Positions 12,210-29,545 of a stretch of DNA of 36,748 nucleotides are shown one piece after another; the first letter of the stretch is position 1; each line of letters starts with the position of its first letter. The translations under genes and the position numbers were made by a program. The notes under the pieces were generated by a model that was not told the origin of the DNA, searched no databases, and saw only the letters and a program-made list of their open reading frames with translations. Location of the stretch: contig JAMDBT010000026.1 in the NCBI GenBank assembly GCA_023487205.1, forward strand, positions 1 through 36,748, in the 5' to 3' direction. Origin of the DNA: Thermoplasmatota archaeon. Lineage in GTDB: Archaea; Thermoplasmatota; Thermoplasmata; Thermoplasmatales; Thermoplasmataceae.

Positions 12210-12217
12210 TTATATTA
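12210..12217 (+). promoter_or_regulatory. TATA box for the top6B operon
   Basis: TTATATTA is centred about 25 bases before the ATG at 12239, so the mRNA is probably leaderless. No ribosome site is seen before this ATG, in agreement. Confidence 0.6.
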
Positions 12218-12238
12218 GATTTCCAATAACGTCCGAGA

Positions 12239-14107
12239 ATGCCGAAGAAAACAAACGAGATTTCACGTAACAGAGAAATCTCTATATCTGAATTCTTTGA
12301 GAAGAACCGGCACATCCTTGGCTTTGATTCTCCTACAAAAGCACTTTACATGACTGTGAAAGAGGCGATCGACAATTCCATTGATGCATGCGAGGAACAT
12401 TCGATTCTCCCGGATATTTCAGTGTCCATTGACAAAGTGGATCAGGATGACTTGAGGATCACCGTGGAGGACAACGGCCCGGGCATAGATCCGCTTGAAG
12501 TGGCAAGCGTGTTTGGCAAGTTGCTATATGGTTCCAGGTTTCATGCAATGCGCCAGTCCAGGGGGCAGCAAGGCATTGGAATAACTGCTGCAGTCCTGTA
12601 TGGCCAGATCTCCACTGGATCCCACGCCGTCGTTAAGACGAAACAGGCTGCCGACGACGTTGCTTACTCGTTCGAAATTTCAATCGACATCACGAGAAAC
12701 GAAGGAATAGTCCACGAGAGGAAGTCATTCATCTGGGACCGCCAACACGGCACAAGCGTTTCCATTGCGATGAAAGGAAAATACCAGGTGGGAAGGCAGA
12801 GTGCGTTTGAGTATCTTAAGGAAACCGCAGTGGTGAACCCACACATGGACCTTCGATTCACTGACCCGAGCGGAAAGAACTTTCATTTTCCCAGATCTGT
12901 GGAAGTTCCTCCCAGTCCGTCCATTTCCATGAAACCTTACCCGCTGGGCCTTGAACTTGGGGAAATACAGCAGATGGCCCATCAGACGCAAAGCGAGAAG
13001 ATGAAGTCATTCCTCACATCCAGCTTTAACAGGGTAAGCTCCAATGTCGCGGATGAAATTCTCCAGAAAACCGGCATTTCTCCCGATTCTGATCCGAGAG
13101 AACTCACTGCCTCCCAGGCAAGATCCCTGATGAACGCGTTCAAGGAGGTCAAGCTCATGGCTCCTCCAACCGAAGCCCTGTCCCCTGTCGGCCCGGAATT
13201 CATCAGGAAGGGCCTGAAGAGCGTTTATGAGGATCAGCACCCGTCTTTCTATTCCAGACCCGTCCTGAGACCGCCAGGCGTTTACAACGGGAACCCGTTC
13301 CAGGTTGAAGCCGGAATAGTGTTTGGCGGAGATCTGCCCGTAGAGGAAAATGTCAGGATTGTACGGTTTGTCAACAAGGTCCCGCTCCTTTTTCAGCAGG
13401 GAGCCTGCGCCATAACACAGGCCGTATCAACAATCGACTGGAGGCCGTTTGGCCTGGACCAGAAGCAGGGAACCGGCATACCCTTCGGGCCAATGATAGT
13501 CATGGTTCACGTTTGCGGAACCAAGATACCGTACACCTCGGAATCCAAGGAAGCCATAGCTTCCGTGGAATCCATTTCGGAAGAAATTGTTCTGGCACTC
13601 CGGCAGGTTGGAAGAGACGTGCGGAGATTCCTCAACAAGCGGGAGAGAAGGAGCCAAATCAACGAAAAGTTCAGGCTGATCAGGGAACTGATTCCGGCAA
13701 TATCTGAGAAAGCATCTGTGCTGCTTGAAAAACCCGCTCCACCGATTGATCCGGTGATCGCAAAGGTTGCAAACGTAATCCTCATTGCCGAGGAATTCAA
13801 GACAACGGACGATTCGGTGAGTGTCAAGTGCACGGTGTGCAATTATACGAGATCAAGCAGATCTCTCAAGATATATCCGGACCCGCCCGCAGGCGAACTT
13901 TTGGGCCAGAAATTCTATGAAATCACAGACCTTGCTCCATCGCTTTCTTATGACTTTGCCTTCTCCATCAAGGGGATCTCGAAGAATTATGACGGCACCG
14001 ATTATTACTTCACCGGAATAGATCCCGTATTTGTGCAGGGTGCGGAACCGCTGCCGGCAGATTGGGAACTTGGGGGAATGAAGATTGAGGAGGAGGTTGA
14101 AGAATGA
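12239..14107 (+). CDS. top6B: DNA topoisomerase VI subunit B
   Basis: This is a 622-residue ATPase subunit of the type IIB topoisomerase. It has the GHKL fold: EAIDNSIDA with Asn46 (N box), VEDNGPGI near 76-83 (G1) and SRGQQGIGI near 107-115 (G2). An H2TH region and a transducer domain follow, and the QKQGTG segment probably carries the switch lysine. The last 100 residues resemble the extra beta domain seen in some euryarchaeal B subunits, which explains a length above the roughly 530 residues of crenarchaeal forms. It overlaps top6A by ATGA. Topoisomerase VI relaxes and decatenates DNA. Confidence 0.95.
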   Translation: MPKKTNEISRNREISISEFFEKNRHILGFDSPTKALYMTVKEAIDNSIDACEEHSILPDISVSIDKVDQDDLRITVEDNGPGIDPLEVASVFGKLLYGSRFHAMRQSRGQQGIGITAAVLYGQISTGSHAVVKTKQAADDVAYSFEISIDITRNEGIVHERKSFIWDRQHGTSVSIAMKGKYQVGRQSAFEYLKETAVVNPHMDLRFTDPSGKNFHFPRSVEVPPSPSISMKPYPLGLELGEIQQMAHQTQSEKMKSFLTSSFNRVSSNVADEILQKTGISPDSDPRELTASQARSLMNAFKEVKLMAPPTEALSPVGPEFIRKGLKSVYEDQHPSFYSRPVLRPPGVYNGNPFQVEAGIVFGGDLPVEENVRIVRFVNKVPLLFQQGACAITQAVSTIDWRPFGLDQKQGTGIPFGPMIVMVHVCGTKIPYTSESKEAIASVESISEEIVLALRQVGRDVRRFLNKRERRSQINEKFRLIRELIPAISEKASVLLEKPAPPIDPVIAKVANVILIAEEFKTTDDSVSVKCTVCNYTRSSRSLKIYPDPPAGELLGQKFYEITDLAPSLSYDFAFSIKGISKNYDGTDYYFTGIDPVFVQGAEPLPADWELGGMKIEEEVEE

Positions 14108-19897: not shown

Positions 19898-20053
19898 CCA
19901 GAGATAAGCGAGGCCGTTCCAGTAAGGAAGGACAACGGTTTCCCAGGAAATGCAGAAACTCCCGAGACCCTTTGATGTCCCGTCGCCTCAGGCATAGTTA
20001 CTGAAATTGCCGATAGACAGGTTAAAGTAATACCTGAAAATCCAGAATTCCGG

Positions 20054-20095
20054 TGATGACGTCCACCCATAACCGCTGAAGCAGCTGATGACGTC
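20054..20095. repeat. Pair of 10-base direct repeats before the hydrogenase-like operon
   Basis: TGATGACGTC occurs at 20054-20063 and again at 20086-20095, 32 bases apart start to start, about three helical turns, so both copies face the same side of the DNA. Each contains the palindrome GACGTC. They lie 17-60 bases before the first ATG of the complex. A TATA-like GTTAAAGTAATAC at 20021-20033 would place them in the early transcribed region, as expected for a repressor site. Confidence 0.45.
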
Positions 20096-20112
20096 TGTTT
20101 CACAGTGAGAAT

Positions 20113-21060
20113 ATGACGCTGTTATGGGTAGAGACATTGATACAGATCGTCGGAGTCTTGGCTCTGGCACCTTTTGTCACAGGCATACTGAACAGGGCGA
20201 GAGCTAGGTTTGAGGCCAGAAAGGGACCTCCTATTTTCCAGCCATACTACGACCTGGCCAAGTACATCCGGAAGGAAATCCTGCTCCCTGCCAACTCTAC
20301 CAGGGTATTCTATCTGGTACCATTCTTCGTTTTCGGCATATACCTCCTCATATCATTCGTTATTCCCGTGATCCTCCCGTTTCCTGATTACCTTTCAGTG
20401 TCCGTGGACTTTCTCGGAGGGGGACTTCTGTTTGCGCTGACGTCTGTACTACTGATCCTCGGGGCACTGAATTCAGGAAACAACATTTCTGCCATGGGGG
20501 CTAGCCGGTCTGCCACTTTTTCGGCTTATGGAGAGCCAACACTCATAATGGTTTTCTTCGCAGTAGCGCTGATTTCCGGAACCAATAATCCTTACGTCAC
20601 AAATGCAGTCCTTTCTACGTCCATAACGGGCTACCTCGGGCTATATCATCTCTTTGCAATGGTCGCATTCTTCATGCTTCTGCTGTTCGAAACCGGCCAA
20701 TTGCCGCTTGAGAGCAGCTCCAACATGGAACTTGGCATGATAGACGAGGCTCGTGTCTACGAATATTCCGGACCCCATCTTTTCATGATAAAGTACTCTT
20801 CCATGATTAAGCTCTACCTGCTTGGATCCGTCTTTCTCAACGTTTTCGCCTTCCCATGGTTCATGCAGACAGGCATTTTCGGCTCGATTCTTGACATCCC
20901 CATAATGCTGGGGAAATGGTTGGTTCTCATTGTAATTCTTGTTTTGGTGAACGAGAGCCTAGGAAAGGTGCGGCTTTTCAAGATCCAGGACTTCCTCTCT
21001 ATCTCGTTTGCCCTTTCCGTGTTCTCGGTAATTACACTCACGCTGGGGGGAATCCAGTGA
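20113..21060 (+). CDS. NuoH/HyfC-like membrane subunit of Ehr-type complex
   Basis: This is a 315-residue membrane protein with about eight hydrophobic helices. It matches the NuoH/HycD/HyfC family, which sits at the junction between membrane arm and iron-sulfur arm and lines the quinone or proton pathway. Diagnostic segments are ARARFEARKGPPIFQPYYDL near residues 29-48, and FETGQLPLES followed by MIDEARVYEYSG, with conserved acidic residues. It is the first of six overlapping plus-strand genes and ends GTGA into the next. No convincing ribosome site precedes the ATG. Confidence 0.9.
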   Translation: MTLLWVETLIQIVGVLALAPFVTGILNRARARFEARKGPPIFQPYYDLAKYIRKEILLPANSTRVFYLVPFFVFGIYLLISFVIPVILPFPDYLSVSVDFLGGGLLFALTSVLLILGALNSGNNISAMGASRSATFSAYGEPTLIMVFFAVALISGTNNPYVTNAVLSTSITGYLGLYHLFAMVAFFMLLLFETGQLPLESSSNMELGMIDEARVYEYSGPHLFMIKYSSMIKLYLLGSVFLNVFAFPWFMQTGIFGSILDIPIMLGKWLVLIVILVLVNESLGKVRLFKIQDFLSISFALSVFSVITLTLGGIQ

Positions 21061-21677
21061 TATTCTCTGAAATAGAAGGAATACTTGGTGCCCTGATCCT
21101 TGGGTCCACCCTTGTCGTCCAGACGAGATTATACATCAGGCCGATGATAAACACCGTAGTGACTCAGTCAGTCATCCTTGCAATTACGGCAGCCATTATT
21201 GGAATCACCACCTCTGATCTTGACCTCATCATCCTGGCCGCATTGATAGTTGTAATCAGGGGAGTTCTGGTAAGGCACTTCCTGAGCCTGAGGCTTCCAA
21301 AGACCAGGATGTTCGTCAAGGAAACCTCACATGGAGTCTCCTCTGTGACCATGTACAGCGTCGTAGTGTTGATCTTGTCGTTTCTCATATACAGATACAC
21401 GTTCTTTCCAATCATCCAGTCCCCCCTTGGTGCAATTGGATTTTCGATGATAGTCCAGGGGCTTCTCCTCATCATCACCAGACGCAACAGCTTCGCTCAT
21501 TTCATTGGATATGTCGAGGAGGAGAACGGCATAATATTCATGAGCCTCACAATCGTGACATTGCCGTTCCTGATTGAGATTAGCGTTCTCCTGGACGTGC
21601 TTGCGCTAATAATCGTTGGAACGGGCCTTGTGACAGAGAATGTAGAGCATATGCGCGAAGAGGAGTTGATGGGATGA
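21057..21677 (+). CDS. HyfE-like membrane subunit of Ehr-type complex
   Basis: This is a 206-residue, strongly hydrophobic protein with about six helices, of the HyfE type found in group 4 hydrogenases; part of it is thought to correspond to NuoK-like helices. The start is GTG at 21057 in the overlap GTGA with the previous stop; longer frames upstream lie entirely inside the previous gene. A conserved acidic stretch EEENGIIFMSL appears near residue 155. It ends ATGA into the next gene. Confidence 0.85.
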   Translation: MIFSEIEGILGALILGSTLVVQTRLYIRPMINTVVTQSVILAITAAIIGITTSDLDLIILAALIVVIRGVLVRHFLSLRLPKTRMFVKETSHGVSSVTMYSVVVLILSFLIYRYTFFPIIQSPLGAIGFSMIVQGLLLIITRRNSFAHFIGYVEEENGIIFMSLTIVTLPFLIEISVLLDVLALIIVGTGLVTENVEHMREEELMG

Positions 21678-23017
21678 ATCTGACCATCCTCTTACTGATT
21701 GCATTACCGGCAGTATTCTCGCTGGGCTATTTCTCCAGGCAGTTCAAGCATATCGCAGTAATCTCGGCAGGGCTGACTCTGGCCATGGCCCTATACATAA
21801 TGGTCACGCAGCTGGATCTTTCTGGCTATTTCCTGGTGGATTATCTCTCCAGGTACTTCATCATGGCCATATCATCCATCTACCTGCTTTCAGTGGTCTT
21901 TGGAGTGGGATACCACCACAAGATGGGAGAGTCCAGAAACATGAGGCTCCACCTGTCCCTTATCGATCTCTTTGCCTCCAGCATGCTCTTCTCCATAGCT
22001 GTCAATAACTTTGGACTCCTCTGGTTCGGCATAGAAGCCACAACGGTGTCAAGCACGCTTCTCCTGGTCATCGAGAAAGAGCCGTTGAAGATAGAGGCCG
22101 CCTGGAGATATGTGATAATCGTTTCTGCCGGGTTAACCATCAGCCTGCTTTCCGTACTGGTGCTGTACTACGACTTCAACAATCTCACTATCAGTTACCT
22201 CCTTTCCCATCATCCGGCTTACCCGGAACTCACCGCCATCGCGGCAGGCACTGCCCTGATAGGATACGGTACCAAGATAGGCCTGTTTCCCATGCACACA
22301 TGGCTTCCGGATGCCCACAGTGAAGCTCCATCCGAGATAAGCGCAATGTTCTCAGGAGTACTCCTGCCGGTCGCAATATATGCCCTGTACAGGGTTTACG
22401 AGGTAACTGCAGCCCCCCGCATAACTGACCTTTTTATTTTCTTTGGAGTGGTAACAATCCTGTTCTCCACCATTATGCTGCCTTCCCAGCGCTTCTACAA
22501 GAGAATGTTTGCATATTCGACCATGGAGAACATGGGTCTGATCCTCATCGGCTTCACCATTGGTGGAATTGCGCTCACAGGGGCCTTGATTCTGCTGGTA
22601 ACCCATGCATTCGGGAAGGGTGCTGCCTTCTACTCCTCCGGAAACATACTTGAGAACTATGAGTCAAAGAAGATTTCTGACGTTACGGGGCTCAGGCAGA
22701 GAATGCCCTTCACATCCGTGTCACTCATACTATCCTCTCTGGCAGTGACGGGGGCGCCTCCATTCGGCACTTTCCTCGGCGAGTTCTTCATACTGACAGA
22801 GCTCTACCTAAACGGATATTTCCTGGCAGTAGCGCTAATCGTTGTATCTCTCCTGATTGCATTTGCAAGTGTCAACTTCCATGTCTCAAGGATGGTGTTT
22901 TCTGGACATGACGAACCAGTCTCTGAGTCTTCCAGGTCGCAAGTGGCGGTGGCGCTCAGTGCTTGTGCGATCACTCTACTGATTCCATTTCTATTCCTTG
23001 CATACGGGGTGATCTGA
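21674..23017 (+). CDS. HyfF/NuoN-like antiporter-type subunit of Ehr-type complex
   Basis: This is a 447-residue protein with about 13 hydrophobic helices, homologous to the ion-pumping subunits of complex I (NuoL/M/N) and Mrp antiporters. The key residues are kept: Glu121 in LWFGIEATT and Lys201 in GTKIGLFPMHTW, followed by LPDAHSEAPS. Their presence suggests active proton or sodium translocation. The ATG overlaps the previous stop (ATGA), and the end overlaps the next start (TGATG). Confidence 0.92.
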   Translation: MNLTILLLIALPAVFSLGYFSRQFKHIAVISAGLTLAMALYIMVTQLDLSGYFLVDYLSRYFIMAISSIYLLSVVFGVGYHHKMGESRNMRLHLSLIDLFASSMLFSIAVNNFGLLWFGIEATTVSSTLLLVIEKEPLKIEAAWRYVIIVSAGLTISLLSVLVLYYDFNNLTISYLLSHHPAYPELTAIAAGTALIGYGTKIGLFPMHTWLPDAHSEAPSEISAMFSGVLLPVAIYALYRVYEVTAAPRITDLFIFFGVVTILFSTIMLPSQRFYKRMFAYSTMENMGLILIGFTIGGIALTGALILLVTHAFGKGAAFYSSGNILENYESKKISDVTGLRQRMPFTSVSLILSSLAVTGAPPFGTFLGEFFILTELYLNGYFLAVALIVVSLLIAFASVNFHVSRMVFSGHDEPVSESSRSQVAVALSACAITLLIPFLFLAYGVI

Positions 23018-24240
23018 TGGTCGGGGAGGACGTGATAACAGGAGTCCTGGAATCCGGTGGAGGGGAATGCGAAATCACCTCGGGATTTGGTATCCCATCT
23101 TGGAAGAAAGCTGCTGGCAGCGACATTGATGGGCGCGAGGATTTCAAGGCGTGCGTAGGCAGGTTTGATGAAAAAGCAGAGGGTACGGACGTTTTCAATT
23201 TCACATACGGTCCGTCGGCCGGAGGATTGAACGAATCGTGCAAATTCAACATATACACCTACGGTGAACGAATCCTTTCGCTCAGGCCGGAACCCGCATA
23301 CAAGGACAGGAGGCTGGAGGTTTCTGGTTCGGGGCTGGTAATGGCAATCCTCAGGCTTGAACGCTACTGCGGGCCATTGAGTCCCTTCTATTCCGGCATG
23401 TTTGCTGCTGCAGTGGAAGCAATCATGGGAAATGGCGAGAACAATGATCTCCGGCTTGCAAGGGTAATCATGAACGAGGTGGGCAGGATCTCCGACCACC
23501 TGTACGTGATTGCAAAGCTTGCGGAAGGTGCCTCGCAGAACGTGGCGTACAACCTGCTCTTTGGCCTGAGGGAAAAGCTTCTCAGGCTGGTCTCAAGAAG
23601 GTTTGGCCACCGCTATTTCTTTGGGATCAATGGATTCGGGGGCCTCGCGAGGAGCGCAGACTTTGGGGGCATCTCCTCAGAGGTTGGAGCGATAGCGGAG
23701 GAGTTCCGGCAGTTATGGATCAGGCTGGAGAATTCTGGAATATTCATAGACAGGATCCAGGGGACGGCCACCCTCAGGAGGCCATGGATGGTCGGTCCGG
23801 CGGCGAGGGCTGCAGGTTTGCGCACGGACACAAGGATTGATGGTTCATGCCTGCGGTATGATGATCTTGATCTTGAAGTTGCCAGCGCGGCCAGCGCGGA
23901 CACCCTGGCCAGGAGCCTGGTGCGGAAGGACGAGATCTTTGCATCCGCACGCATCATAGAAAAAGCAGAAAGCATGATTCGTGAAGTCCCGGCAGCAGTC
24001 CGAATGAACTTAGGGGAAATCAGCGGCGAGATTTCAGTGAGAACAGAAACCCCGGGAGGAGATTCCCTTATGCGGGTCTCACTGGCAAACGGGGTTGTGA
24101 AGAAGATATACATCAGGCCATCGTCACTGCAGAATCTTGCCGTTTTCACTTACGCCATAAAGGAAAACCTGCTCACCGACTTCACTTTCGGGTACGAAGG
24201 GCTGGGCATCCATGTTTCAGAACTGGGAGGCGTCCTATGA
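23017..24240 (+). CDS. Hydrogenase/NuoD-like large subunit lacking Ni ligands (Ehr type)
   Basis: This 407-residue protein is homologous to the large subunit of group 4 [NiFe] hydrogenases and NuoD. Near the N-terminus it has YGPSAGGLNES, close to the family's GPQHP region. The first Ni motif CGxC has become ERYCGPLS: Cys118 remains but its partner is Leu121. The C-terminal CxxC motif is absent; the protein ends in GYEGLGIHVSELGG. So no [NiFe] centre can form. This is what defines energy-converting-hydrogenase-related (Ehr) complexes. The first 55 residues could be a shortened NuoC-like part. ATG 23017 overlaps the previous stop; the longer frame upstream is inside the previous gene. Confidence 0.88.
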   Translation: MVGEDVITGVLESGGGECEITSGFGIPSWKKAAGSDIDGREDFKACVGRFDEKAEGTDVFNFTYGPSAGGLNESCKFNIYTYGERILSLRPEPAYKDRRLEVSGSGLVMAILRLERYCGPLSPFYSGMFAAAVEAIMGNGENNDLRLARVIMNEVGRISDHLYVIAKLAEGASQNVAYNLLFGLREKLLRLVSRRFGHRYFFGINGFGGLARSADFGGISSEVGAIAEEFRQLWIRLENSGIFIDRIQGTATLRRPWMVGPAARAAGLRTDTRIDGSCLRYDDLDLEVASAASADTLARSLVRKDEIFASARIIEKAESMIREVPAAVRMNLGEISGEISVRTETPGGDSLMRVSLANGVVKKIYIRPSSLQNLAVFTYAIKENLLTDFTFGYEGLGIHVSELGGVL

Positions 24241-24869
24241 AATCGTGGCTCACGTATGGCCTGATGAGGAAGCGCCTGACCACCGGGTTCCCTTCAATGG
24301 AAGCCGAGGAGGTACCTCTCTGGACCACGACCCCGGTCAGTACCGGAACCGGAGAGGCACACTGCCCCGCCAATGCAATCAAAGGCACCACAGTTGAGAT
24401 GGGGAGATGCATATCATGCGGCTATTGCAGTCCAGCCTTCCAGCCGGACGGAGTCCCGGGAACATCGATCGTTAGGTCAACAGAGAAGGCATTCAGGAAA
24501 TCGTTCCACATCTATCTGTTCGATGCTGGGTCCTGCGGGTCCTGCAATCTTGAGGTGAAAGCACTGGGAAATCCTTACTATGATATGAGCCGCCTTGGAA
24601 TATCATTCTGTGCAACTCCCAAACATGCGGATGCACTCATTGTCGTGGGAGTACTTGCCGACGGGATGAGCGATCCTCTGAAGAGGGCGGTCGAAGCACT
24701 TCCTTCACCCAAGCTGATCTTTGCCCTTGGAGCGTGTGCGATCTCAGGTGGTATCATCGGAAAATCCATATCCGGGATAGTTGACGCGGACATTGTTGTG
24801 CCGGGATGCCCGCCAAACCCGTTCACCATCCTGGATGCCCTGCAGAGATCCAGGGGAGTCAGGTTATGA
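24237..24869 (+). CDS. Fused ferredoxin-NuoB-like iron-sulfur subunit of Ehr-type complex
   Basis: This is a 210-residue protein in two parts. Residues 35-70 are ferredoxin-like, with Cys43 in HCPANAI and Cys58, Cys61, Cys64 in CISCGYC: exactly the four ligands of one [4Fe-4S] cluster, while the second cluster of normal ferredoxins is lost. Residues 88-205 are the small subunit (NuoB/HycG) with Cys100 and Cys103 in CGSCN, Cys167 in LGACA and Cys191 in VPGCPPNP, the four ligands of the proximal cluster. This fuses HyfH and HyfI functions. The electron path is therefore intact although the large subunit has no metal site. It overlaps both neighbours by ATGA. Confidence 0.88.
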   Translation: MKSWLTYGLMRKRLTTGFPSMEAEEVPLWTTTPVSTGTGEAHCPANAIKGTTVEMGRCISCGYCSPAFQPDGVPGTSIVRSTEKAFRKSFHIYLFDAGSCGSCNLEVKALGNPYYDMSRLGISFCATPKHADALIVVGVLADGMSDPLKRAVEALPSPKLIFALGACAISGGIIGKSISGIVDADIVVPGCPPNPFTILDALQRSRGVRL

Positions 24870-26743
24870 TTCTTCCTCTGTTTCTGGTTGCAGCATTAAT
24901 TCCTGTTGTGATCTCAACGTTGAGCGTTAAAAACTCATACCGGGCAGGTACCGTACTCTATTCCCTCATAGCCGCGACTTCGTTGTACGCCCTGATGACC
25001 GGAACTACACATCATGTGGTCGTCAGCAGCTACCTTGCATTCTCCATAGATCCGCTGTTCTCTGCATTCCTGCTCATGATATCTGCTGTGTGGGCAATAA
25101 CCTCATTCTTCTCCATTGAATATGACCGAAAGTCTAGGCCAAACGCGTTTTCCTTCCACCTTGCGATACTGTCCATGATGGTCGTGATGACCTCCGAATC
25201 ATTTCCCCTGTTCCTTTCCGGATGGGAAGGAATGACAATATCCGGGTACTTCCTCATTGGCTTCAGGAAGGGCATGAACAGCATTCCACCCTATGTATTC
25301 CTTGTTTACGGCGAGTTGAGCACGCTTCTCATCATGGTGATGGGTGTGGGCATGTACTTCCAGTCAAGCACCATGCTGTTCATCGCAGACTCCTACAACC
25401 AGATCATCGTTTTCCTGGGAGTAATGGGCTTTTTTATCAAGATGGGTGTCATGCCATTTCAGATTACAGAATGGTTACCCATTGCTCACGGGAACGCCAG
25501 CACCAACGGTTCCATACTGTTCAGTGCAGCGATGACGACCGTGGCTCTTTACTCTATCTTGAGATTCATAACCATTTCAGATCCGGGTGAGGTGTTTGGC
25601 CTGCTCATAATGGGAATAGGCGCATTTTCACTTCTTTTCGGGTCAATTTACTCCGCCTCCGCTGAGCACGTTAAGATGCTGCCTGCCTACAGCACCATAG
25701 AGAACAGCGGTGCAATGCTCATCTTCACCGGGGCCTTCATTGTTCTGGGCGCACTTGGTCAGATGCAGATCGCAACATTTGCGCTTGCCGGCCTGTTGAT
25801 ATTTGCCTTTTCTCATGCGCTTTCAAAGAGCGGGCTCTTCATGTTCTCCGGGATCATGGAGCAAAGCACCGGAACAACGGAGATCAAGAGTTACCGCGGA
25901 GGCAACAATTCAACATTCTACGGGGCCGGAGGATTCCTGAGTTCCGTCTCTCTTGCCGGCATGCTGCCTCTTGGAGGTGGCGTGGGGGAGTGGATGCTCC
26001 TTGAGACTATCTTCGTCATGTCGATTCTTGGGAACTCCATCACAAGTCTCGTATCCATAATCGTGGGCGCCACCGCTGCCCTTGGCGGGGGGATATCCAT
26101 AATTTCCATGACCAAGATCTTCGGGTTTGGGTCAAGAGGAGCCCATGAGAAGGGCAGAAAAGAGGGACCGATGAGGATCTCCCTGCTGGCCATGGGTGCA
26201 GGCGTAATTCTCATCGGGGCATTCTCGACACTGTACGTTGCCTTGGTCAGCAACATGATAGGCAGGTATACCGGCATGGCTGCGACCACCATAATCAGTG
26301 GGGCACTCATTGTGCCGAATGGCTTCCTTCTGGCTTCATCCAGCAGCACTGGTTCATTCGGCGGGATATCCCCGTTTTTCACCGCACTATTCATAGCATT
26401 GTTCACCGGAGTCTTGCTCCTTTCATTCAGGGAGGCAAGATCCAGAACAGTCGTGAATTGGAATGGGGGGATAGAGGAGGAGGACAAACTGCACTCCTTC
26501 GCCTATGCCAACTCACTTCGTCTTACAATGAAGAGATTCTACCTCACCACTGAGGAAAGGAGGGGCAGCAAATACTCCGAGAGGACCTTCGATGCCTTCT
26601 GGTTGGTCATCATTTTCCTGGCAAGAAAGACGGTGGCCTTTTCAAGAATTGTGGGGATGAGGGTAATGAACAGCAGCCTGACGGCTTATGTGCTCTACAT
26701 AATGGTGGCGTTCTTTGCCGTCATGATTTACATTGCGATCTAG
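24866..26743 (+). CDS. HyfB/NuoL-like antiporter-type subunit of Ehr-type complex
   Basis: This 625-residue protein has about 14-16 hydrophobic helices of the NuoL/HyfB type. Glu121 in SGWEGMTISG, and the Lys in FIKMGVMPFQ before EWLPIAHGNAS, are the expected ion-channel residues. The LPDAH.EAP motif of relatives is altered to LPIAHGNAST. A charged segment of about 70 residues at 530-600 precedes the last helix and could form the lateral amphipathic arm seen in NuoL. ATG 24866 overlaps the preceding stop. It is the last gene of the operon; no T-rich terminator follows directly. Confidence 0.9.
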   Translation: MILPLFLVAALIPVVISTLSVKNSYRAGTVLYSLIAATSLYALMTGTTHHVVVSSYLAFSIDPLFSAFLLMISAVWAITSFFSIEYDRKSRPNAFSFHLAILSMMVVMTSESFPLFLSGWEGMTISGYFLIGFRKGMNSIPPYVFLVYGELSTLLIMVMGVGMYFQSSTMLFIADSYNQIIVFLGVMGFFIKMGVMPFQITEWLPIAHGNASTNGSILFSAAMTTVALYSILRFITISDPGEVFGLLIMGIGAFSLLFGSIYSASAEHVKMLPAYSTIENSGAMLIFTGAFIVLGALGQMQIATFALAGLLIFAFSHALSKSGLFMFSGIMEQSTGTTEIKSYRGGNNSTFYGAGGFLSSVSLAGMLPLGGGVGEWMLLETIFVMSILGNSITSLVSIIVGATAALGGGISIISMTKIFGFGSRGAHEKGRKEGPMRISLLAMGAGVILIGAFSTLYVALVSNMIGRYTGMAATTIISGALIVPNGFLLASSSSTGSFGGISPFFTALFIALFTGVLLLSFREARSRTVVNWNGGIEEEDKLHSFAYANSLRLTMKRFYLTTEERRGSKYSERTFDAFWLVIIFLARKTVAFSRIVGMRVMNSSLTAYVLYIMVAFFAVMIYIAI

Positions 26744-27253: not shown

Positions 27254-27718
27254 TCAGTTTGTTCTGTTTAGTGTTTCTCCCAATGCCTTCAGTACACCAA
27301 ACATGGCTTTGATACCCCTTGAAGTGTCTGGGTCTTTCATCATCTTGGACATCTTCAGCAACGAAAGCGACTTGTGGTCCGGATCCTGCTCCAGGAATGC
27401 GTCCGCCACCCCACGAAGATTGAACATGATCAACTTTAACATATCGGATACCTGTTCATCCGCAAGCGCGTACATGACGCTGACAAGCAGGTTTGCGCTC
27501 TTAAGGGCTGCATAGGTAAATTCCCTGGAAGTAAAGAAATGGCCCAGGAATTCAACATCGGTGGGAAGGTAATCCTTGGTGATCTCGGCGATCAGGTTCA
27601 GTATTCCCGCCTCCTTGAGTCTCCTCACAAGAGGGATGAAAGCCAACACCACATCAGTATTTTCCTTCAACTCATTTAACAGGATTTCAACGGCGTCCTT
27701 ATCTTTGTCATTTTCCAT
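27254..27718 (-). CDS. DUF1641 family protein
   Basis: This is a 154-residue, mostly helical, soluble protein of the DUF1641 family. Recognisable features are the LNELKENTDVVLAFIPLV start, the GILNLIAE helix and the Gly-rich end RGIKAMFGVLKALG. Members commonly sit beside sulfide:quinone reductase-like flavoproteins or formate dehydrogenases, as here; the function is unknown, perhaps membrane docking or electron transfer. The ATG at 27718 follows GGTGG by a few bases. A longer frame overlaps the previous gene and was rejected. Confidence 0.8.
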   Translation of the reverse strand: MENDKDKDAVEILLNELKENTDVVLAFIPLVRRLKEAGILNLIAEITKDYLPTDVEFLGHFFTSREFTYAALKSANLLVSVMYALADEQVSDMLKLIMFNLRGVADAFLEQDPDHKSLSLLKMSKMMKDPDTSRGIKAMFGVLKALGETLNRTN

Positions 27719-27726
27719 TTTTCCAC

Positions 27727-28872
27727 CTACATTATTCCCCTTATCATTCCCGTAAAGTAAGTGTCTGAGGATGTCCACTTCAGAAAGTAGTCTGACTTGC
27801 TCTCATAGTTGACCCTTGGAGGCTTGTTATAGCTGAAGAACAGTGTTATTGCCCTGGACCCGCTTGTGATCGTGGTACATGCCACTTCACCGCCGTATGA
27901 CTCAAAGAACGCATTTCCGTTAACTTCGTTTGCCAGCCTGTTCGCCAGATATTCCGTCTCAAAGTGCGCCGTGGCACCAGCTTTTGAAATTGGAAGGTTG
28001 GTGGCATCCCCGATCACGAAAACGTTGTCATAGTCAGCGTAGTTCAGGCGGTTCCTATCAACGTCAATATACCCGCTCTCGTCTGCCAGGCCTGATTCGG
28101 TGATGACCTTCTGCCCCCTGTGCGGAGGGACCAAAACGAGCAAATCATAGTCCAGGGTTTCCCCTTCTATCGAATTCAGTCTCCTGATCTCCGGTTCCAC
28201 TGAATCCACGTTAAACATCTTGTGGATTATGATGCCTTTATCGTCCATCAATTTCTCTACGAAGGGCGCAACATTCGGGATCGTAAATACCCTGTTCAGA
28301 GGGTAGATGTAGTGAAGCTCGGTCTGTTTGCGGATTCCCCGCAGGTTGAGATACTGCTCCAGTTGGAAAGTGAATTCGTACGGAGCAGGAGGACACTGGA
28401 TCGGGATGCTTGCCTGCCCTATTACGATCTTTCCGCCGTTGAAATGGTTGAGCTTTTCCCTCAGAGCCAGAGAGGCTTCAAGGCTGTAAAAATGGGAAGC
28501 AGCCTTCTCGTATCCGGGCAGGTCCTCGTAAGCGAAGCGATCTCCCGTTGCGATAATCAGGTAGTCATAAAAGTACGATTTTCCCGAGCTTGCGATGACA
28601 GTGGAATTCTTCACGTCGATTGAGGCAACGGTTTCACGCACATAGTTTACGCCGAAGTTGAACAGTGACCTCGTGGGTTTCACACTGTTCCTGTAATCCT
28701 TGAATCCGAATGGTATGCTTACGCCATCCGGCTTGAAATAGTGCTTCTCAGAATTTCCCAGTACGGTTATCTGAATATCGGAAGGATCGGAATGGAAACG
28801 CAGCTTGTTGCCCATCATGGTTCCGGCGGCGCCGTCGCCCAGGATCAGGACTTTCTTCGCTGAGGGGCTCAT
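27727..28872 (-). CDS. Sulfide:quinone oxidoreductase-like FAD protein
   Basis: This is a 381-residue flavoprotein of the two-dinucleotide-binding (SQR/FCC) family. The FAD site is VLILGDGAAGTMMGNKL at 8-24, then IIATGDRF at 106-113 and FVIGDATNLP at 285-294. Redox Cys candidates are Cys160 in IQCPPAPYEF and Cys332 in VACTT; they correspond to the two central cysteines of SQR, while the third one of classical SQR is not seen. It may oxidise sulfide or a protein persulfide to reduce quinone. ATG 28872 was preferred; TTG at 28875 would add one residue. It lies between tusA and DUF1641. Confidence 0.82.
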   Translation of the reverse strand: MSPSAKKVLILGDGAAGTMMGNKLRFHSDPSDIQITVLGNSEKHYFKPDGVSIPFGFKDYRNSVKPTRSLFNFGVNYVRETVASIDVKNSTVIASSGKSYFYDYLIIATGDRFAYEDLPGYEKAASHFYSLEASLALREKLNHFNGGKIVIGQASIPIQCPPAPYEFTFQLEQYLNLRGIRKQTELHYIYPLNRVFTIPNVAPFVEKLMDDKGIIIHKMFNVDSVEPEIRRLNSIEGETLDYDLLVLVPPHRGQKVITESGLADESGYIDVDRNRLNYADYDNVFVIGDATNLPISKAGATAHFETEYLANRLANEVNGNAFFESYGGEVACTTITSGSRAITLFFSYNKPPRVNYESKSDYFLKWTSSDTYFTGMIRGIM

Positions 28873-28878
28873 CAAGAC

Positions 28879-29118
28879 TCACTTGACTTTTTTCATGACA
28901 ATCTCGTAGTAGCCATCCCTTGTGTACACTCCAACCAGTTCGTTCCCTGACTTCTGTATCCAGGCGGGAGCATCCTTCCTGGTCCCTTCGTCCGAGGAGT
29001 ATACTGAGATTACGTCCCCAACCTTTCCCTGTTTGTAGGCCTTGATCAATTCCATCAGCGGTCCCGGACAATAGCTACCTCTCGCATCAATTACCTTGGT
29101 CGGTTTCACGTCTTCCAT
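28879..29118 (-). CDS. tusA: TusA-family sulfur carrier
   Basis: This is a 79-residue TusA/SirA-fold protein. The CPxP motif ([10 protein letters not shown], Cys17) carries sulfur as a persulfide, which is passed between partner proteins. Length and fold are normal. It stands between a DsrE-like protein and an SQR-like flavoprotein, the pairing found in archaeal and bacterial sulfur oxidation clusters, which favours a role in dissimilatory or detoxifying sulfur transfer rather than tRNA thiolation. Only six bases separate it from the flavoprotein. Confidence 0.9.
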
Positions 29119-29131
29119 CTTATCTACCTCC

Positions 29132-29545
29132 TCACAGGAACAGGGTCATCTTTGATTCCCTGGCCATGTCTACGAACTGGGAAACGCCGATTATGTCCTT
29201 CACTATAGGATCAAGGTCATTTTTCTTGATTCCCATCAGGTCTGCAAACATTGCGCAGGCATAAACGTTCACAGTGCCTATTTCCTGCAACTTCTTAAGA
29301 GTGTCAAGCCAGGATGGGATCTTCTTTTCGGCCATCACCTGCATAATCTGCCCTGCCATATTCCCGGCATCAGGGCTGAGGGTGGGGGCCGGTCTGCCAT
29401 TCTTTTTGAGCTGCAGAAGTGCCCAAAAGGTCACGAATATGTCCACGTCCATCCCGTTGGCTACAGCTCCAGAAGAGATTATAGATCCTGCCATTAGCTT
29501 ATCCATTGCTCCCGAAAACAATATTATGGATGTTTTTTCAGCCAT
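29132..29545 (-). CDS. DsrE-like (COG2210) sulfur-transfer protein
   Basis: This is a 137-residue protein of the DsrE/DsrF/peroxiredoxin-like family. The start [13 protein letters not shown] is the usual first strand and loop, and Cys97 in [12 protein letters not shown] is the conserved sulfur-accepting cysteine of DsrE2-type proteins. Such proteins relay sulfane sulfur to TusA, which is the next gene. It is the first gene of the operon. Upstream is a TATA-like box and an 18-base palindrome. A membrane segment, found in some DsrE2 proteins, is not obvious. Confidence 0.82.

Follow-up and report, generated by a model that had tools for sequence, protein, structure and literature searches.

The stretch of DNA considered here (the window) comprises 36,748 nucleotides of contig JAMDBT010000026.1, from a 1.56 Mb draft genome (completeness 96.5%) of an archaeon of the order Thermoplasmatales, and contains an operon of six genes on the plus strand, spanning 20113-26743, in the order HyfC-E-F-large-small-HyfB. 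The operon joins large and small subunits like those of group 4 hydrogenases to membrane subunits resembling antiporters, as expected of the energy-converting-hydrogenase-related (Ehr) complexes, and it is immediately preceded by a fluoride riboswitch. The link between this riboswitch and the group of Ehr complexes that we refer to as EhrA is the main new result presented here and the strongest functional clue. The original prediction, made from the letters of this stretch alone, had described six overlapping HyfC-, HyfE-, HyfF-, large-, small- and HyfB-like genes, and the coordinates, strand, order and Pfam and NCBIfam names all agree with that description (Table 1); it had missed both the upstream riboswitch and a half-ferredoxin fused to the small subunit.

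Table 1. Features of the Ehr locus and its downstream neighbours, in window coordinates
Feature	Position	Strand	Evidence and remarks
Fluoride riboswitch aptamer RF01734 (crcB motif)	20043-20104	+	49.0 bits vs gathering score 34; E 9e-11 (window)
HyfC/NuoH-like membrane anchor	20113-21060	+	PF00146, E 3e-30; E141, R132, K50, E217 conserved as in HyfC/NuoH
HyfE-like membrane subunit	21057-21677	+	GTG start, 4-nt overlap; 26 bits vs E. coli HyfE
HyfF-like antiporter subunit	21674-23017	+	PF00361, E 7e-49; NCBIfam hydrogenase 4 subunit F, 480 bits (exceeds cut-off)
Large (NuoD/HycE-like) subunit without Ni ligands	23017-24240	+	PF00346, E 2e-19
Small (NuoB/HycG-like) subunit, N-terminal half-ferredoxin fused	24237-24869	+	PF01058, E 2e-20
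HyfB-like antiporter subunit	24866-26743	+	ATG 24866; PF00361, E 7e-18; NCBIfam hydrogenase 4 subunit B, 432 bits
DUF1641 protein	27254-27778	-	
Type III SQR-like protein	27727-28875	-	
TusA	28879-29118	-	
DsrE2	29132-29545	-	Downstream of Ehr operon

Adjacent genes of the operon share 4 nt or 1 nt, and the true start of the large-subunit gene is the ATG at 23017, not the TTG at 22963. The matches to PF00146, PF00361 (twice), PF00346 and PF01058 all exceed the cut-off, and a Pfam search with the HyfE-like protein returned no match. The identical six-gene order was found again at about 55 loci of the order, so that the arrangement is not a matter of chance, and a direct scan of named genomes gave as nearest named relatives two metagenome-assembled genomes labelled 'Thermoplasmata archaeon', with large-subunit identities of 88 and 78%. 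The antiporter Glu and Lys residues, predicted to be intact, are indeed conserved in the alignment, at 100% for E121, K201, H215, K276 and E370 of the HyfF-like subunit and likewise for E121, K192, K321 and K417 of the HyfB-like subunit. At two loci (L055, G070:C3 at ~752.7 kb, and L085, G047:C3 at ~233.7 kb) a riboswitch-linked Ehr large-subunit gene is broken across two frames, through a frameshift or an assembly error.

The 3' end of the aptamer lies 8 nt upstream of the first ATG of the operon. It is the sole riboswitch match in this genome, and its identity as Rfam family RF01734 is supported both by a score above the threshold and by conservation of P1 and the pseudoknot. A search of 117 genomes of the order gave 121 riboswitch matches in 91 genomes, and in 59 of 82 cases an EhrA large-subunit gene had a same-strand riboswitch 2.91-3.18 kb upstream, i.e. 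at the operon start, a placement with a chance probability of ~6e-5 per genome. Two further EhrA operons (L255 and L256) have sub-threshold matches at this point, and at least five other riboswitches at contig ends lead into hyfC. One clade of eight EhrA paralogues (L047, L050, L052, L054, L056, L079, L082 and L083) is considered separately below; in seven of the eight genomes a riboswitch-linked EhrA copy is found as well, and at three of the paralogue loci genes for 2-oxoacid:ferredoxin oxidoreductase (POR) are close by. No riboswitch was found at the EhrA operon of genome G035, and the remaining unlinked operons are cut by contig ends, with G015 outside this check.

The pairing extends beyond the order, where EhrA operons L158, L161 and L162 have a riboswitch above the gathering score and L159 and L160 have one below it, the last with two weak matches on opposite strands upstream of the operon (12213-12282, minus; 12404-12480, plus). 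No riboswitch reached the gathering score at the loci of EhrB, a second Ni-less group described below (L163-L168, L176), or at true hydrogenase loci (L169, L170, L172, L174, L177). Among genomes at least 90% complete, the riboswitch occurs in 37 of the 38 with Ehr vs 5 of the 13 without (p = 1.6e-5, in a test that ignores shared ancestry), and in genus g15 four of the five genomes have neither Ehr nor the riboswitch.

Covariation was analysed in 21 distinct aptamer cores, in which pairing holds for 94.7% of cells, and both sides have changed at six of the nine P1 and pseudoknot pairs. The covariation score was 0.48; shuffles gave 0.15, with none of 500 reaching the observed value, and sliding the structure gave no more than 0.17. 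Scoring of 34 loci placed the start codon 0-19 nt downstream of the aptamer, a distance which suggests that the riboswitch controls translation. Beside the hyfC start codon at L072 (1-230), L089, L073 and L090 the 3' pseudoknot strand recurs (ACGCC or GATAACGC), and this repeat could compete for pairing and so mask the ribosome site when fluoride is absent. Among 34 other riboswitches that were looked at, a MutS-like gene follows 13, a pyrophosphatase gene one and CrcB one, each of these being an established member of the fluoride regulon (PMC2864571, PMC11139923), and seven directly precede a small (~115 aa) coiled-coil-like protein in family f3 (L203, L208, L210, L216, L233, L234, L239).

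The large subunit has Cys at one of the four Ni-ligand positions (Cys118, codon 23368-23370); the other three ligands are absent, and the C-terminus, DFTFGYEGLGIHVSELGGVL, has no second CxxC. The original prediction had recognised this loss of the Ni site, and its identities for Cys118 and Leu121 are right when numbered from 23017; its view of Cys118 as a retained ligand is not borne out. The five successive sister groups of the window subclade have Asn at this position, as do 43 of the 53 EhrA sequences outside that subclade at the first Ni-ligand column, and within EhrA only the four window-subclade sequences have Cys there. Because the sister groups carry Asn, a leftover ligand is ruled out and Cys118 is a later Asn-to-Cys change.

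In a maximum-likelihood (ML) tree of 100 large-subunit sequences, with long branches and an uncertain deep order, the window protein falls within a 57-row clade without Ni ligands (EhrA, support 100/100), separate from true hydrogenases, from NuoD and from EhrB, a HycE-like Ni-less group with the motifs ERISGDN...NLSYSGND; a 100/100 branch has EhrA and EhrB on the same side. Two findings that the original prediction had feared would undo its Ehr-type assignment did not materialise. Forcing the window subclade together with the hydrogenases was rejected by the approximately unbiased (AU) test (p-AU 4e-69), and no other Ni-type large subunit was found in the 96.5% complete genome, whose only two 49-kDa-type proteins are the Ehr large subunit and a NuoD in a separate complex I cluster with NuoB, C, D, H, I, K and L/M/N homologues. 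HypD, which is required for building the NiFe centre, was not found in the genome by a search that was positive in E. coli and methanogens. Given the support for the Ni-less clade, the AU rejection and the absence of both another Ni subunit and HypD, the complex is assigned as Ehr-type and not as a hydrogenase. An AlphaFold model of the large subunit, based on three sequences, had a pLDDT of 35 and was not used. Some genomes of the order, in family f3, encode a genuine group 4 [NiFe]-hydrogenase in which none of the four Ni ligands is missing (L169, L170), and one of them, G006 (L169), has both this enzyme and an EhrA operon.

One feature of the former active site has been kept. Glu73 (codon 23233-23235), a residue of the proton-relay type, aligns with MbhL Glu21, described as the key proton-reduction residue of MBH (PMC7684303), and Glu is found in this column in 57/57 EhrA, 11/11 EhrB and 29/29 hydrogenase sequences vs 0/3 NuoD, so that the EhrA pocket may still deliver protons.

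In the small subunit the four proximal-cluster cysteines (C100, C103, C167 and C191) are intact and conserved, as predicted, with the hydrogenase-type C-x2-C spacing and not the tandem CC of complex I. The N-terminal half-ferredoxin contributes C43, C58, C61 and C64 (CPxxAI...CxxCxxC), which make up one [4Fe-4S] motif, and all eight cysteines are conserved in 54-57 of 57 homologues. EhrA is distinct in this respect from the HycE-domain EhrB of the phylum, in which a complete two-cluster ferredoxin is fused at the same site; the fused ferredoxin part of EhrA is cut down to one cluster, without the first CxxCxxC and the last CP. In the usual 2[4Fe-4S] ferredoxin ligand scheme the loss of these two elements removes exactly one cluster, and the electron wire is therefore predicted to be two clusters long, running from the half-ferredoxin to the proximal cluster.

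Six-gene Ehr operons of unknown function have been reported in Sulfobacillus (PMC4378227), and Ni-less 'hydrogenase 4' genes in acid-mine Thermoplasmatales (PMC3750248). Both resemble the complex described here in their HyfC/E/F/B-like arm, their large and small subunits and their lack of CxxC Ni motifs (PMC4378227, PMC3750248, PMC6349859), whereas fluoride control, predicted here for riboswitch-linked EhrA, is nowhere mentioned in these papers. From the RNA side, Weinberg in 2010 reported the crcB motif upstream of 'formate hydrogen lyase' genes (PMC2864571), and a 2024 review still reads this target as formate oxidation (PMC11139923). The locus shares with that regulon a crcB-motif RNA in the 5' untranslated region of Hyf-like genes, but the label does not fit the downstream complex, which is an Ehr with no Ni site and no formate enzyme in the operon; the published target is probably Ehr in these archaea. 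A literature search, limited in coverage, found no paper joining fluoride, Thermoplasmatales and riboswitch. Complex I (NuoD/NuoB) belongs to the same fold families and has intact pump residues, but differs in its tandem CC at N2 and its quinone-site His38/Tyr87, where the Ehr has CxxC and neither quinone residue.

Several potential partners of the complex were considered. The original prediction had proposed, from proximity, a link to the sulfur operon that follows on the minus strand. This SQR-TusA-DsrE2 cassette neighbours no other Ehr operon among the roughly 55 loci compared by synteny, and the co-occurrence across genomes that had been suggested as a check was not seen (DsrE2 in 19/38 Ehr-positive vs 9/13 Ehr-negative good-quality genomes, Fisher p = 0.34, from a table put together by hand from genome listings); neither line supports the link, and DsrE2 is common in the order, unlinked to Ehr. 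A formate dehydrogenase-NuoF partner, as in Riflemargulisbacteria, was also rejected, with NuoF and FdhA on another contig and the 51K gene in 20/38 Ehr-positive vs 3/13 Ehr-negative genomes (p = 0.11). In this genome the gene for a NuoF-like protein has behind it one for a protein of the Mo/W formate-dehydrogenase type that contains 2Fe-2S and 4Fe-4S domains (L189, G000:C30, 40-3845), which is at odds with a published survey describing Thermoplasmatales as without NuoEF. Five POR_N genes in the genome score above the cut-off.

Recognised fluoride exporters are scarce. CrcB/Fluc was found in 4 of the 117 genomes, three of them above the cut-off, and not in this one; none of those three has EhrA (p = 0.05), a mutual exclusivity of Fluc and Ehr that is suggestive only. 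In G090, which is of the same genus and has no EhrA, the riboswitch is followed by CrcB. Most genomes carry a CLC gene with GREGP and of untyped ion selectivity, and a CLC match was obtained in 88/117.

The explanation that we favour, and to which we give about half of our confidence, is that fluoride induces the Ehr complex as a redox-driven ion pump to counter HF stress. The proposal draws on the fixed position of the riboswitch at the operon start, its covariation and co-occurrence with Ehr, the near absence of CrcB, the pump residues, the Glu21 equivalent Glu73 and the POR genes, and the recurrence of the riboswitch-Ehr pairing throughout a group of acid-loving archaea suggests that it holds for their Ehr complexes. 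HF (pKa 3.4) enters cells as a weak acid, releases H+ and F- inside and lowers pH and proton-motive force, and Na+/H+ antiporters are the second commonest targets of fluoride riboswitches (PMC11139923); an acidophile would be expected to feel this acid load strongly. In acid, then, HF would diffuse into the cell and dissociate, imposing a load of H+ and F- and a lower proton-motive force, and fluoride bound by the aptamer would expose the hyfC ribosome site. Low-potential electrons would enter, most likely from ferredoxin reduced by the POR enzymes, and leave at the pocket that once housed the NiFe centre, where the acceptor is most likely a membrane quinone and Glu73 would assist its protonation. 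The energy would be used to expel H+, or to exchange Na+ for H+, and so restore internal pH and membrane potential.

As far as sequence can establish them, the six-subunit Ehr architecture, the loss of the Ni site, the two-cluster wire, the intact ion-pump residues and the conserved riboswitch form the firm part of this account; the donor, acceptor, direction, ion and physiological role we infer, and quinone is a guess. Four points weigh against it. The complex I quinone-site His and Tyr are both absent from the large subunit, the upstream DNA of the eight-member paralogue clade contains nothing at E below 1, so that fluoride control is not universal in EhrA, the co-occurrence tests take no account of common descent, and a CLC-family gene in most genomes means that other fluoride exits may exist.

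Of the alternatives, the one that survives best, although we think it unlikely, is a metabolic bypass. Metalloenzymes such as enolase and pyrophosphatase are blocked by fluoride, and Ehr would mainly re-oxidise ferredoxin, or reduce it by reverse flow that draws on the large proton-motive force of an acidophile, rather than restore pH. Such a role would suit the number of POR_N genes and the review in which 'formate hydrogen lyase' under riboswitch control is tied to a metabolic shift (PMC11139923), but the POR-type pair found near three paralogous Ehr operons lends it less than it might, since those three belong to the clade without a riboswitch. Rather less probable is a respiratory ferredoxin:quinone oxidoreductase of the ordinary kind, in which fluoride has no special part and the riboswitch is inherited but unimportant. 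That a very divergent clade, reaching beyond the order, has kept the riboswitch with covariation, and that the RNA and Ehr are missing together in genus g15, argue against this, even if Ehr is widespread and usually described with no mention of fluoride (PMC4378227, PMC10284858) and the paralogue clade does without the RNA. More doubtful again is a redox-driven exporter, in which the antiporter-like subunits or the whole complex would move F- or HF out in place of Fluc; it would account for the rarity of Fluc, the lack of Ehr in the three genomes with CrcB above the cut-off and the occupation of the riboswitch slot by CrcB in G090, whereas all antiporter Glu and Lys are of the usual proton-path kind, no anion-selective motif was recognised and CLC is present.

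We regard as very improbable a polysulfide reductase resembling MBS and tied to the adjoining sulfur genes (27254-29545). Pyrococcus MBS/MBX is likewise a Ni-less, membrane-bound group 4 relative without Nqo4 His38/Tyr87, but MBS, taken here from its description (PMC7684303), keeps two Ni-site Cys, lacks an E21-type Glu and has a proximal-cluster Cys loop three residues shorter, whereas EhrA has neither the short loop (gap-free when aligned to HycG and MbhJ) nor two such cysteines and keeps the Glu; the cassette, moreover, adjoins Ehr in this genome only and does not co-occur with it. A true group 4 [NiFe]-hydrogenase or formate hydrogenlyase, to which the Hyf-like gene order and subunit names might point, has a negligible probability and is rejected by sequence, because the four Cys ligands (the derived Cys118 being the clade's only one) and the maturation gene HypD are missing and the AU test excludes it.

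If the complex is indeed a fluoride-induced ion pump, the Ehr of Thermoplasmata could be their main fluoride defence, replacing the missing Fluc by expelling HF-borne protons or fluoride, and the riboswitch-linked 'formate hydrogen lyase' would be Ehr, at least in these archaea; we hold this broader proposal tentatively, as one slightly more apt to fail than to stand. The function of Ehr is an open question, the 'formate hydrogen lyase' fluoride target has gone unexplained since 2010, and the two meet here in one conserved arrangement. A riboswitch of known ligand ahead of a complex with an unexplained role makes fluoride, supplied at low pH, a simple inducer that lends itself to testing, and suggests how extreme acidophiles without Fluc, which are expected to face the strongest HF accumulation, may cope.

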